Part shown: one piece after another, positions 41,698 to 59,759 of the stretch
Position numbering within the stretch: the stretch's first letter is position 1
Layout: every line of letters starts with the position of its first letter
NCBI GenBank assembly: GCA_002897895.1
Contig: BDSY01000041.1
Span: 1 to 64,000 of the forward strand
Origin: a bacterium BMS3Abin06
GTDB taxonomy: Bacteria; Nitrospirota; Thermodesulfovibrionia; UBA6902
Length of the DNA: 64,000 nt
Direction of reading: 5' to 3'
Position numbers and translations under genes: made by a program
The notes under the pieces: generated by a model
What the model saw: only the letters and a program-made list of their open reading frames with translations
Database searches by the model: none
Told to the model about the DNA's origin: nothing

Positions 41698-41782
41698 TGA
41701 ATCTTGCCGCAACATCGTTTTTCAGTGCGCACTTGCGTACATGCATATTCTATGGTATTAAGTAATTAAAAGGAGGCGGCTC

Positions 41783-42019
41783 ATGAGTGATAAAAACATA
41801 GTTGTCTACAGCCAGCCGGGCTGAATTTTCTGCGAAAAAGTGAAAGAGTATCTTTCACAAAAAAAGGTTGAATTCACTGAACGTGATGTCTCAAAAGATG
41901 CGGAAGCCGTAATTGACTTAAAGAATATGGGAGTTATGACTACACCGGTTACCGTAATTGAGGACCAGGTAGTGGTCGGCTTTGACCGGCAGAAAATTGA
42001 ACAACTGCTGGGTATCTGA
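41783..42019 (+). CDS. Selenocysteine-containing glutaredoxin (UxxC)
   Basis: Not in the ORF track because codon 14 is TGA (41822-41824). Read as Sec the 78-aa product is a complete glutaredoxin: strand 'IVVYSQPG', active site U14-I-F-C17 in place of C-x-x-C, helix 'EKVKEYLSQKKVEF', cis-Pro motif 'MTTPVTVI' and 'VGFDRQKIEQLLG'. No other stop occurs. AAAAGGAGG is well placed before the ATG. A hairpin (GTGAAAG, loop AGTAT, CTTTCAC) begins 15 nt after the TGA with a G as second loop base, 24 nt after the UGA, fitting a bacterial SECIS. The window also has a Sec-type formate dehydrogenase. Sec should lower the active-site pKa and strengthen reductase activity. A stop mutation is the alternative. 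Confidence 0.87.
41840..41858 (+). promoter_or_regulatory. Candidate bacterial SECIS element of the glutaredoxin
   Basis: Seven perfect base pairs GTGAAAG/CTTTCAC close a five-base AGTAT loop. bSECIS elements sit just 3' of the UGA and need a G among the first two loop bases; here G is second. Spacing UGA to that G is 24 nt, within the known range. The segment also encodes KVKEYLS, the normal helix of the protein. Confidence 0.7.
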
Positions 42020-42047: not shown

Positions 42048-42251
42048 TTATCCGGCTATCCTGTAACCGGCGTTCCTGACGGCATCTGTAATTGTATCCG
42101 TATCTGTCTTTGACTCGTCATAAACAACCTTTGCAGTACCTACCGCAACTTCCGAGGCGCTTACTCCTTCAACGCCCTCAATGGCCTTTTTGACACTCAT
42201 TACACAATGCCCGCAGCTCATGCCGTCTATTTTCAATGTGATTTCAGACAT
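42048..42251 (-). CDS. CopZ-like copper chaperone (HMA domain)
   Basis: 67 aa from the ATG preceded by GGAGGGATGAA; the track's start adds eight residues. Ferredoxin-like heavy-metal-associated domain with 'IDGMSCGHCVMSVKKAIEG' as the Cu(I)-binding CxxC. Expected to hand copper to the ATPase CopA encoded 200 bases away on the opposite strand. Convergent with the Sec-glutaredoxin gene, 28 bases apart. Confidence 0.88.
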   Translation of the reverse strand: MSEITLKIDGMSCGHCVMSVKKAIEGVEGVSASEVAVGTAKVVYDESKTDTDTITDAVRNAGYRIAG

Positions 42252-42452
42252 TTCATCCCTCCATGATTGATTCAATAACCGATTGTTTTCTTAATCCAAA
42301 ATTTACAACTAAATTGTGAAGAAAATATGAAAGAAAAATTTGTAATACCTATTTTTAACGGGTTTGATGATATAATTTTTATGGAGAGAACAAATCATCT
42401 TTTCCCCCGGACGAATACAGAGGGATAGAAAGGCTTTAAAGGAAGGAGCATC

Positions 42453-45125
42453 ATGGTTAAAGATCCGGTTTGCGGTATGGAGATTGAAGAGAAAAGCGCC
42501 GCAGGGATGTCTGAATATAAAGGCAGGATTTATTATTTTTGCGCAAAACCCTGCAAGGAAGATTTCGATAAAGACCCTGATAGATTTGTAAAAGACGGGG
42601 CAGGAGAAGCATGTCCCCTGCCGGAACTGTCAAAAGAAGAGGTTATACAGCCGGATGAAAGATCAACCGGGTCCAAAAGGATAGACATCCCCATAACCGG
42701 CATGACCTGTGCGTCGTGCGCATCCAGAATTCAGAATGTGCTTTCAAGACTTAATGGAGTAGAAAGCGCTGCGGTAAATTTTGCTGCTGAAAGGGCAACA
42801 GTGTTTTACAATCCATCGCAAGCTTCGGTTGATGATTTTATAAGCACGATCAAGGACCAGGGATATGGAGTTTCAGCCTCAAGGGTTACCATTCCGATAA
42901 AAGGTATGTCTTGCGCTTCATGTGTAAAAAAAGTACAGGATTCTCTCCTCTCATTAAACGGCGTTTTTTCAGCCAGAGTAAATCCGGCAACGGAAAAAGC
43001 AACTGTTGAATACTCAACTGCACAGGTTGGGATGAGGGATTTTAAAAAGGCCATCAGGGATACAGGTTATGACATCGTGGAGATTGAAGAGGGGGAGGAC
43101 ATAGTTGAGAAAGAAAAAAGAGAGAGGGAGAAGGAGTATAAGAAACTAAAAACCAGGGTCATCGCCGGAGCCGCACTTACTCTCCCGATATTCCTTCTTG
43201 TATTCTGGGAAAGAGCAGGGCTGTCCGCAATTGTAGACATACCTCAACAAACAGGCTTTCTGCTTCAATTTATAATCCAGACGCCTGTCCAGTTCTGGGT
43301 GGGCCGGCAGTTCTATACAGGCGCTATAGCCGCTGCACGCCACAGAACTACAAATATGAATACCCTGATAGCCGTGGGAACATCGGCTGCGTATGTTTAC
43401 AGCGTGACAGCGACTTTTTTCCCCTCTGTGTTTGAGATAGAGGGTTATGCAGCTCACGTGTATTTTGATACGGCTGCAACGATTATTGTGCTTATCCTGC
43501 TCGGAAGGCTGTTTGAGGCGCGGGCAAAAGGCAAGACTTCCGAGGCAATAAAAAAACTTATGGGCCTTCAGCCCAGAACAGCGAGAGTTGTCAGAGACGG
43601 CCGGGAACAGGATATACCGATAGAAGAAGTAGAAACAGGGGATATTATTATTGTCAGGCCGGGTGAGAAGATTCCGGTAGACGGAATCATAAGAGAGGGA
43701 TATTCATCAGTTGATGAGTCCATGATTTCAGGTGAATCCATACCTGTTGAAAAAAAAGCCGGTGATGAGGTAATCGGGGCTACTATAAATAAAACAGGCT
43801 CATTTAAATTTGAGGCAACCAAGGTCGGCAGGGACACCATGCTGTCTCAAATTATCAGCATGGTTCAGGAGGCGCAGGGTTCCAGGCCGCCGATAGCCAG
43901 GCTTGCGGATAAAATAGCGTCGATTTTTGTTCCGGCAGTAATCGGCATTGCTTCAATAACTTTTATAATATGGTTTTTCTTTGGGCCTGAGCCGGCATTA
44001 ACCTATGCGCTATTAAATTTTATAGCTGTTATGATCATAGCCTGTCCGTGCGCACTTGGCCTTGCTACACCAACATCGATAATGGTAGGAACGGGTAAAG
44101 GCGCTGAAAACGGCATATTGATACGTGGCGCAGAGGCGCTTGAAACAGCGCATAAAATAAATACTATTGTCTTTGATAAGACCGGCACATTGACAAAGGG
44201 GGAGCCGGTGGTTACGGACGTAATTGTGAGTCAAAAGTCAGGAGTCAGGAGTCGGGAAATATTATTTTACGCGGCCTCTGCTGAAAAGGGTTCCGAGCAT
44301 CCTCTTGGAGAGGCTATAGTAAATAAAGCAAAAGAAAAAAATATCGATCTGAAAGACCCGTCTGTTTTCCAGGCTGTTCCAGGTCACGGGATTAAAGCAA
44401 AAGTTGATAGTAAAAATGTACTTCTCGGGAATGCGGATTTTATTGAAGATGAAAAAATAAATATTGATGATCTCAAAAGTAAGTCTGAAGAACTTTCCGG
44501 TGAAGGGAAAACACCTGTGTATATTGCAGTGGACGGAATTGCGATCGGGATAGTAGCTGTTGCCGATACATTAAAAGATAATTCTGTTGCAGCGATAAAG
44601 GCGCTTCGTAAACTCGGCGTTGAAACTGTAATGATCACGGGTGACAACAAAAGGACTGCTATGGCTATTGCAAAGCAGGTCGGGATAGACAGGGTTTTGG
44701 CAGGGGTATTGCCCCCGGACAAGGCAAAAGAAGTTAAGAAGCTCCAATCGGAAAACAAGGTTGTCGGCATGGTTGGCGACGGCATCAATGACGCGCCCGC
44801 GCTTGCGCAGGCGGATGTGGGCATAGCAATTGGAACAGGCGCCGACGTTGCAATGGAGGCATCCGATATTACTTTAATAGGCGGTGACCTGAAGGGGGTT
44901 GTTGCATCAATAGCCCTTTCAAAGGCAACGATCAGAAACATCAAGCAAAATCTTTTCTGGGCCTTTGCTTACAATACAGTATTAATTCCTGTTGCAGCAG
45001 GTATTCTCTTCCCCTTCTTCGGAATACTCCTGAATCCGATGTTTGCAGCGGCGGCAATGGGGATGTCTTCGGTTACAGTGGTGACAAATGCGTTGAGATT
45101 GAGGAAGTTTAAATTCAGTATTTGA
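42453..45125 (+). CDS. copA: Copper-exporting P-type ATPase with YHS and two HMA domains
   Basis: 890 aa. Domains: YHS (1-47, '[11 protein letters not shown]', '[10 protein letters not shown]'), HMA1 (about 75-140, GMTCASC), HMA2 (about 145-210, GMSCASC), eight membrane helices, the ion motif '[12 protein letters not shown]', phosphorylation site [11 protein letters not shown], 'SEHPLGEAI' and '[20 protein letters not shown]'. Exports Cu(I) across the inner membrane. The N-terminal YHS fusion is less common and may receive copper. A heptamer (AGTCAGG) repeat at 44236-44256 encodes an extra 'SQKSGVRSR' before the HP motif. RBS GGAAGGAG. Confidence 0.95.
44236..44256 (+). repeat. Heptamer repeat inside copA
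   Basis: AGTCAGG, AGTCAGG, AGTCGGG in tandem within the copA nucleotide-binding domain. It adds Lys-Ser-Gly-Val-Arg-Ser-Arg-like residues in a surface loop. Three units (21 bp) keep the frame; a change of one unit would not. Confidence 0.8.
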
Positions 45126-56606: not shown

Positions 56607-57072
56607 ATTCCCTTATTGAGTCGATTATCTCATCTGCTTTATTAAAATCCAGATTTTCGTAATGATCCGCATTAATCATCATTGCCGGTGCATACCCGCA
56701 TGCCCCGAGACATTCTACAGCCTCTAAGCTGAATAAGCCGTCCGGGGTTGATTCCCCCTCTCTGATACCGAGTTTTTTTGATATATAATCAAAGAGCGTC
56801 TCCTTTTCAATTAATGAGCATGAGACATTTGTGCAGACCTGAATATGATATTTGCCTCCTGGCTTTAAGTTCAGCATTGAGTAAAAACTTGCAGTACTGA
56901 ATATCCGCGCTTCCGGAAGATTTAATATTTCAGACAGATCCTCCATGTCGCTCCCGGAAATATAACCGTTTTCCTTTTGGATCAGACAAAGGGACGGCAC
57001 AAGGGCAGAGTCTCTGCATGGAAACTTTTTCATAAACCCCGCAATGGTTATTCTTGTATCTTTGTCAATCAT
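56584..57072 (-). CDS. Formate dehydrogenase 2Fe-2S subunit, NuoE-like
   Basis: 162 aa from the ATG that overlaps the fdhA stop (ATGA); the track's start is 8 residues longer. Thioredoxin-like 2Fe-2S domain with Cys pairs in 'QVCTNVSCSLIE' and 'VECLGACGYAPAM'. Relays electrons between FdhA and the flavin subunit. GGAGAAGG is a good ribosome binding site within the end of fdhA. Confidence 0.92.
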   Translation of the reverse strand: MIDKDTRITIAGFMKKFPCRDSALVPSLCLIQKENGYISGSDMEDLSEILNLPEARIFSTASFYSMLNLKPGGKYHIQVCTNVSCSLIEKETLFDYISKKLGIREGESTPDGLFSLEAVECLGACGYAPAMMINADHYENLDFNKADEIIDSIREYENPAEK

Positions 57073-59759
57073 GCCTTCTCCAGACGTATGGCGCATGCCT
57101 TATATTCCGCTGTGCCTGCAACAGGGTCAAAGGCATTATTGGTAATAACATTTGCGCAGGCCTCATGAAAATGAAAAGTCATAAAACAGACTCCCGAAGG
57201 CACTCGGTCGGTTACCCATACCCTGACTTTTACCTTGCCTCTGCGTGAGACAGCCATTACATAATCTCTGTCTTTAACATCAAGTTTCCCGGCGTCTTCC
57301 GGATTTATTTCCATTAATTCTTCGGGATGTATTTCATCAAATCCCGCGCATCTTCTTGTCTGTGTTCCGGTGTGGTACTGCCAGAGACGTCTTCCGGTAG
57401 TAAGCACAAACGGGTATTCTTCATCAGGACACTCAGCAGCCGGTTTCCACTCTGCAGGATAAAATCTGGCCCGGCCTTTTGGGAATGATCCATTTTTGTA
57501 AAGGTATTTTGTTCCGGTATGTTCAATGTCCGGGCACGGCCACTGAATGCCTTCATGTTCAATTCTTTCATAGGTTATTCCGGAAACAGAAGGGGTTAAT
57601 TGACGGATTTCTTCCCATATCTGCTCTGCTGATCCGTATCCCATATCGCAGCCCATCCGTCCGGCAATCTCACCCGTAATCCACCAGTCGTCCTTTGCCA
57701 TCCCCGGTGGCTCCACGGCCTTTCTTACTCGCTGTATACGTCTTTCAGTGTTCGTAAATGTCCCTTCTGTTTCAGCATAGCATGCAGCAGGCAAAACAAC
57801 ATCTGCGTATTCTGTGGTTTCATTCATGAAAATATCCTGCACTATAAGCAGATCAACATTCTCCAGTGCCTTGATAGTGTGTGCCTGATTCGGTTCAGAC
57901 ATCACGACATTTTCACCTGCCAGGTAGAGTGCCTTTACATCACCGCAATGGATACCGTCGAACATGGCGGGTATCTTTGTGCCCTCTGAATCCGGCAGGG
58001 ATTTTACTCCCCAGGCCTCTATAAATTTTTTTATTATTTCAGGATCAGCCGCCTTTTGATAGCCGGTGTAGACATCGGGCAAAACCCCCATATCGCAGGC
58101 GCCCTGAACATTGTTCTGTCCTCTCAATGGATTCACACCCCCGCTTTCGATCCCCACATTGCCGAGAAGCATCTGCAGGTTGGCACAGGTTCTGACATTA
58201 TCAGTGCCGGTGATGTGCTCTGTAATCCCAAGAGTATAGAAGAGTGCGACTTTTTCAGCTTTGCCGAGGATACTGGCAAGCTCCCTGATCTCATCTGTTG
58301 TGAGTCCGCATATCCCGGAGGCATATTCAGGGGAATATCCGCTTACAGTTTCTTTTAATTGATCGAATCCATCAGTATATTTATCAACAAACTCTCTGTC
58401 ATACCATTCATTTTTAATGATCTCATGCATAACTGCATTAAGGAGCGCTATATCAGAGCCGACCCTGTGCTGAAAATGTCTCGCCGCCCATCGTGTGAGC
58501 TCTATTTTTCTTGGATCTATTACTATAAGCCGGCTTCCTTTTTTCACCGCCCTTTTCATGAAGTAGGAAATTACAGGATGGGACTCTGATGTATTGGAAC
58601 CGATCACAACGATAACCGGCACATTTTCAATTTCACGGATGGAATTTGTCATTGCTCCTGCACCGAGCGTGGAAGCCAGACCGGCTACCGTGGGGGCATG
58701 TCAGGTTCGTGCACAGTGGTCAACATTATTTGTGCCGATAACTGCGCGCATGAATTTCATCATTACGTAGTTGCTCTCGTTTGTAGACCTTGCGCACCCG
58801 ATTCCTACTATGGCATCAGGGCCGTGGGCTTTTTTTATTTCCAGGAGTTTCCCTGCGGTAAAATCCAAAGCCTCTTCCCAGCTTACTTCTTCCAGTTTTC
58901 CGTTCTTTCTCAAAAGAGGCGATTTCAGGCGGTCCGATGAATGGACAAAATCATATCCGAATCTGCCCTTGATGCAGAGCGCGCCGTAATTCGGCTCCAC
59001 ATCTTCAACCCCGCTTACCTTTATAATCTCATTCTCCTTTACATGGAGGTTTATCTGGCATCCGACTCCGCAGTACGGACAGGTAGTTCTGCTTTTTTCT
59101 GTTTCCCATGCCCTGGCTTTTCCAACGGCCTTTTTTTCAATCAGCGCCCCGGTCGGGCAGAGCTGTACGCATTCACCGCATACTGCACAGGAGGATTTGC
59201 CCATTGGTTTGTTTGTATCACAGATGACCGTCATTTTACTTCCCCGGAAACCCATATCAAGCACTTCATTAACCGTAATATCATTGCATCCGGTAATGCA
59301 TCTGTAGCACTGGATGCATTTATTCATGTCCCTGATTATCATGGGGCTTGATGTATCAACAGGCATATCTTTTTCTACAACCGGGAAACCGGATTTTTCT
59401 ATTCCGAGATAATACGCAACCTCCTGGAGCTCACAGACGCCGTTTGCCTCGCATGAAATGCAGTTGTGTTTTCCATTTGAGAGGTATAGTTCAACAATCA
59501 TCTTCCTGGTCTCGGCAATTCTCTTTGTATTCGTATGTATTACCATGCCGTCTTTTGCCTCAAGAGAACATGAGACCTGCAGTCCAGGCATATGCTCAAC
59601 TTCAACAACACAAATTCTGCACTTGCCTGCCTGTCCGGTTTTTGGATGGTAACAAAGGGTGGGGATATAAATTCCGTTCTGCCTTGCTGCATTCAGTATG
59701 GAATTTCCTTTTACAGCCTGAACGGGTTTGCCGTCAATGTGAAGGGATATCTTTTCCAA
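57069..59759 (-). CDS. fdhA: Selenocysteine formate dehydrogenase catalytic subunit
   Basis: The track splits this gene into 57069..58652 and 58701..59759; both are in one frame joined through TGA at 58703-58701. Read as Sec353 ('DHCART-U-HAPTVAGL') it is an 896-aa Mo/W-bis-MGD enzyme oxidising formate. Order: 2Fe-2S domain (about 1-75, 'TLCYHPKTGQAGKCRICVVE'), His-Cys3 cluster near 100-115, two 4Fe-4S clusters ('KCIQCYRCITGC', 'CAVCGECVQLCPTG'), the 'CPYCGVGC' cluster near 230 and the catalytic domain. GGTCT-loop hairpin follows the UGA. NuoE- and NuoF-like genes downstream make the NAD-linked complex. Confidence 0.95.
58674..58688 (-). promoter_or_regulatory. Candidate bacterial SECIS element of fdhA
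   Basis: On the minus strand GGTAGCC-GGTCT-GGCTTCC forms a stem with one T-T mismatch around a GGTCT loop, the same apical loop as E. coli fdhF. The first loop G lies 19 nt after the TGA, the spacing SelB needs. Confidence 0.75.

Follow-up and report, generated by a model that had tools for sequence, protein, structure and literature searches.

RESULTS AND DISCUSSION

A glutaredoxin gene interrupted by UGA

The window analyzed here, the whole 64,000-nucleotide stretch of DNA, carries a 78-codon reading frame for a small glutaredoxin that is broken at codon 14 by a TGA, with a hairpin close behind that codon, a copZ-like gene, and, farther along, a copA-like gene for a copper-transporting ATPase (Table 1). 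Translation from the ATG at 41783 to the stop TGA at 42017 to 42019 bears out the frame described in the initial annotation: the TGA falls at the first catalytic position, is the only in-frame stop inside the frame, and, when read as selenocysteine (Sec, U), gives a product that begins MSDKNIVVYSQPGUIFCEKVKEYLSQ and keeps the TTPV motif. The strong ribosome binding site claimed for the gene is likewise present. A mechanical list of open reading frames in the window contains no entry at 41783 to 42019, in keeping with the remark that callers miss this gene; ordinary gene finders overlook it because its selenocysteine is encoded by the stop codon UGA.

Table 1. Coordinates of features in the window
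Feature	Position	Strand	Evidence or remark
Ribosome binding site AGGAGG	41771-41776	+	6 nt upstream of the ATG; closest relatives have a similar site
Predicted Sec-glutaredoxin coding sequence	41783-42019	+	78 codons plus stop TGA
UGA predicted to be read as Sec, residue 14, first catalytic position of UIFC	41822-41824	+	TGA in 10 of 10 family genes
Codon of resolving Cys17 (UxxC)	41831-41833	+	Invariant in alignment A2
Bacterial SECIS hairpin, 8 pairs, loop GUA	41840-41858	+	RNAfold; within published bSECIS constraints
Codon of Pro55, expected cis-proline of the thioredoxin fold (TTP)	41945-41947	+	Invariant in alignment A2
copZ-like copper chaperone (GMSCGHC)	42048-42275	-	NCBIfam CopZ families, E value 5.5e-18, under curated cutoff
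copA-like Cu(I) P-type ATPase	42453-45125	+	TIGR01511, 650.7 bits versus cutoff of 397
Sec codon of formate dehydrogenase alpha subunit	58701-58703	-	HCART-U-HAPTVAGL

Profile searches, run with Cys in place of Sec, matched the product to PF00462 (56.8 bits versus a cutoff of 22.9). Within NCBIfam its closest relations are the YruB-type glutaredoxins (78.1 bits, under the cutoff of 88.55) and the NrdH-redoxins (55.9 bits, under the cutoff of 85.75), whose fold it shares; it differs from both in having Sec for Cys. Membership in the UXX-star glutaredoxin-like selenoproteins, small Sec proteins of which some are thought to bind metal (PMC13188914), was considered and rejected, with scores below the cutoffs for NF041114 (57 versus 66), NF041211 (51.6 versus 100), and NF041212 (26.4 versus 72). 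The window protein also keeps Cys17 in its UxxC site, whereas UXX-star proteins are defined by having no Cys at the fourth position.

The AlphaFold model of the glutaredoxin (pLDDT of 89.5) has as its best PDB match cGrx1 of Clostridium (Alkaliphilus) oremlandii (7c10; TM score of 0.92). This is the closest solved relative, a protein of the same size and fold with a UxxC/CxxC active site (PDB entries 7c10 and 7c12), with 37 of 75 aligned residues identical and the same C-terminal VVVGFDRxKIExLLG. Native cGrx1 reportedly bears Sec, and it is treated in the literature as a selenoprotein glutaredoxin. Compared with cGrx1, the window protein comes from another phylum and has copper genes adjacent, and no glutathione synthetase was found in the draft genome. 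The initial annotation described Sec-glutaredoxins as known from a few bacteria, and they are indeed an established kind, because reviews list them (PMC1794560, PMC13188914). A 2006 survey describes glutaredoxins in the Sec form from Geobacter, Alkaliphilus, and Moorella, with no mention of Nitrospirae in its text (PMC1794560).

Conservation of the UGA codon

A search of the 37 genomes of the family found such genes in eight of them, ten in all counting that of the window; the nearest relative, from MAG HyVt-268 within the same genus, is 82 to 83% identical. All ten have exactly one TGA, at codon 14, and never TAA, TAG, or a Cys codon at that site. Differences behind the TGA lie mostly at third codon positions (4, 4, and 15 at the three positions between the window gene and L094), a bias that argues for translation of the downstream part. 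Homologues from other families of the class are about 40% identical to the window protein and have mostly TGA at the site, with TGC or TGT in a few. An alignment of homologues had been proposed as a check, with Cys or Sec expected at position 14 and the lack of both in close relatives as the outcome that would speak against the idea; the close homologues all have Sec, and the distant ones have Sec or Cys. In the tree, the Sec proteins of both groups fall into one supported set together with three Cys members; distant Cys paralogues lie outside this set, and many inner forks are unresolved. The genomes G378 and G411 each have a second Sec-glutaredoxin gene.

A conserved SECIS hairpin

Folded alone in RNAfold, the sequence behind the UGA forms the hairpin GUGAAAGA-GUA-UCUUUCAC (41840 to 41858) at -8.6 kcal/mol; the bare-stem energy from our own script, which omits dangling ends, is -7.1. 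The hairpin starts 15 nt after the UGA, and the G at 41848, the first loop position, lies 24 nt downstream. The structure originally proposed, seven pairs with the loop AGUAU at the same distance and with the same G, is this hairpin minus its closing A-U pair. Published constraints for bacterial SECIS elements (bSECIS) call for a stem of 4 to 16 pairs, a loop of 3 to 9 nt with a G in its first two positions, a distance of 16 to 37 nt between UGA and loop, and a minimum free energy of at most -7.5 kcal/mol (PMC13188914). When the region was folded, as the initial annotation had advised, all values lay inside these limits: 8 pairs, the loop GUA, a distance of 23 nt, and the RNAfold energy given above.

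Taken alone, the hairpin proves little, because an equally good one at an allowed distance follows 2.4% of codon positions in the other ORFs of the window; it is the conservation of the TGA, the codons, and the pairing that makes it significant. Codons 20 to 25 (GTG AAA GAG TAT CTT TCA) are nearly frozen across the ten family genes. Where two of these genes share a residue, the codon is identical in 96% of pairs at codons 20 to 25 versus 46% elsewhere, and none of 20,000 random sets of six comparable columns matched this codon identity. Among 24 Sec-glutaredoxin sequences, pairing holds in 95.3% of stem cells, with covariation at the first pair (C-G in 13 sequences, G-C in 9) and at the last (A-U in 17 sequences, G-C in 3). 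None of the slid versions and none of 500 shuffles, which ignore kinship, scored as high for covariation. The hairpin does not fold in the Cys homologues L027, L028, and L032. One TGA-containing glutaredoxin, L029 (G252:C54:50127-50351), is the sister of a Cys form and has no conserved hairpin; it may use a different SECIS or represent a transition between Sec and Cys.

Selenium machinery

In the draft genome that contains the window (G000; 2.98 Mb, 92% complete), selA (626 bits) and selB (358 bits) are adjacent on contig 23, and selD (359 bits) is on contig 25. The initial annotation had named selA, selB, selC, and selD as the genes to look for and a genome devoid of sel genes as grounds for abandoning its proposal. 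Three of the four are there, and the gene for tRNA-Sec (selC) was not found in the draft or in the other genome of the genus (78% complete). Rfam matches to tRNA-Sec in G000 were all ordinary tRNAs, among them tRNA-Ser and tRNA-Leu; patterns for the anticodon arm, a gapped version, and the 3' half gave no tRNA-Sec in this genome; and an Rfam scan of the 64-kb window returned nothing. A selC gene inside or beside selB has been reported for some Nitrospirae (PMC8124441), and no tRNA-like match lies inside or beside selB in G000.

Most relatives have tRNA-Sec, which is highly conserved (92% mean identity in alignment A3). It occurs together with the same glutaredoxin gene in G178, G368, and G378, and its 5' half is present in G140. 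Because some relatives have the tRNA-Sec gene in pieces or truncated where a contig ends (L073 in G140:C48, L072 and L078 in G401, L077 and L080 in G209), its absence from G000 is likely an assembly gap. In G140, the first 44 nt of tRNA-Sec run into unrelated DNA, where a pair of small genes by eye resembles a toxin-antitoxin system, and mobile elements may use the tRNA-Sec gene as an integration site.

Other candidates for Sec incorporation were seen along the way. The use of Sec that the initial annotation read in the window's formate dehydrogenase holds up (Table 1); the FdhA gene (57069 to 59759, minus strand) is split at the UGA into two entries in the mechanical ORF list. SelD of G000 (L018:1402-2439) is a Sec protein itself, with Sec at codon 15 (TCGUAAKIG), and a strong hairpin follows its UGA (-10.0 kcal/mol in our own scan). 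At the Syntrophaceae loci L015:4962-5310 and L016:1545-1890, an in-frame TGA lies in an ArsC-like protein (WSR-U-STCRQ), and these are probably ArsC-type selenoproteins.

Recoding of the UGA

At the level of sequence comparison, the proof of UGA recoding at this locus is unusually clean, as protein, codon, and hairpin evidence come together, and the gene at 41783 to 42019 almost certainly encodes a glutaredoxin with selenocysteine as its first active-site residue. If the TGA were a real stop, the gene would be a decaying pseudogene or would contain a sequencing error in TGC, which is a single base away from TGA, and the silence of ORF callers would be in order. This is very improbable and already refuted by the conservation of the TGA, since ten genes share this codon across eight genomes that were assembled separately, with frames intact on both sides and with selection on both the protein and the hairpin. 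Genome-wide reassignment of UGA, for instance to Trp or Gly, would likewise open the frame. However, 17 of the 46 genes counted in the window end in TGA, as does the glutaredoxin gene, and this use of TGA as a stop refutes reassignment, to which we attach practically no credence; the Sec machinery is present, moreover, and the residue aligns with a catalytic Cys.

For translation as a selenoprotein, ribosomes would start at 41783, SelB on the hairpin 15 nt downstream would deliver Sec-tRNA(Sec) at the codon 14 UGA, and translation would then continue to 42019. Sec insertion by SelB and the SECIS is supported at the level of sequence. Judging from the family, the product would present a U-x-x-C site on a glutaredoxin/NrdH fold, where the selenolate would attack a disulfide and Cys17 would resolve the mixed bond.

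Copper genes near Sec-glutaredoxins

The copZ-like gene is convergent to the glutaredoxin gene. The CopA-like protein has two HMA domains with CASC and a CPC motif, and its gene, which has the same orientation as the glutaredoxin gene, lies 434 nt farther downstream. With copZ on the other strand between them, the glutaredoxin and copA do not form a simple operon in the window. Three of the ten genes in the window's own family are near copper genes, namely, the window's, that of G178, which is clustered with a CsoR-family repressor, DUF302, and copA, and that of G396, with copZ only. The other seven have no copper neighbor in the stretch read, and two of those contigs end near the gene.

In two other families of the class, 20 loci were read, and 19 were informative, one contig ending too soon. 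At 17 of these 19 loci, the glutaredoxin gene is followed by a copA gene in the same orientation; the other 2 have none. All 12 loci of family f15 have the two genes abutting or overlapping within about 25 nt, with junctions as in translational coupling. The loci are related and so do not count as 17 independent events; the arrangement is kept across many genera, which argues for shared function. The link to copper handling, marked as inference in the initial annotation, thus gains real support from the conserved copA adjacency in other families. Most genes of the window's own family are without a copper neighbor, and the proteins encoded in the copA operons share only about 40% identity with the window protein.

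Based on this conserved neighborhood, a copper role for the Sec-glutaredoxin has roughly an even chance of being correct. The likely clients would be the CXXC metal-binding sites of CopA and CopZ, which could be kept reduced or handed Cu(I). For this class, we put at fifty-fifty the more specific prediction that the Sec-glutaredoxin is a dedicated CopA partner made in tandem with the pump, its selenol reducing CXXC sites or passing on Cu(I). A plausible alternative, somewhat short of an even chance, is a selenol-thiol reductase of general use, without a special role in copper handling, serving clients such as methionine sulfoxide reductase, peroxiredoxin, or NrdH-type proteins, with the copper genes of the window as incidental neighbors. 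Members of the window's own family have varied neighbors (TrxR-like, cNMP/rhodanese, purine synthesis, and GGDEF genes), in agreement with such a general function, and the characterized relative cGrx1, going by the title of the work on it, reportedly reduces a selenoprotein MsrA. The copA genes directly downstream at the 17 loci of the two other families and the CsoR/DUF302/copA cluster in G178 speak against it.

The partnership with CopA would have a functional analogy in human glutaredoxin-1, a glutaredoxin acting on the HMA domains of the copper P-type ATPases ATP7A and ATP7B, which transfers copper to ATP7B domains (PMC7057996). The likeness is in function only and offers a chemical precedent, with no argument from homology; the human protein is a Cys enzyme, is glutathione-linked, and is not encoded beside the pump. 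If the partnership is real, bacteria of this class would have a selenium-based equivalent of the human Grx1-ATP7A/B link. No report of a Sec-glutaredoxin with CopA, or in Nitrospirota, was found in the open-access literature searched. Sec-glutaredoxins themselves being known already, the main interest lies in the CopA partnership predicted from gene order: a selenoprotein tied to copper export by conserved tandem genes would offer a testable reason for paying selenium in a small redox protein.

Recharging of the glutaredoxin

The probable enzyme for recharging the glutaredoxin is thioredoxin reductase, which does the same for NrdH-redoxins. A search for the glutathione synthetase GshB (PF02955) gave no match in the draft genome with controls positive, and a true thioredoxin reductase is present in G000; this combination makes the NrdH-like route the preferred one. 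Two relatives have a gene for a TrxR-like flavoprotein next to the Sec-glutaredoxin gene, in divergent orientation. A second type of Sec-glutaredoxin locus within the family (L098, L101, and L102) lies beside genes for cNMP-binding/rhodanese proteins, with a TrxR-like flavoprotein in two genomes.
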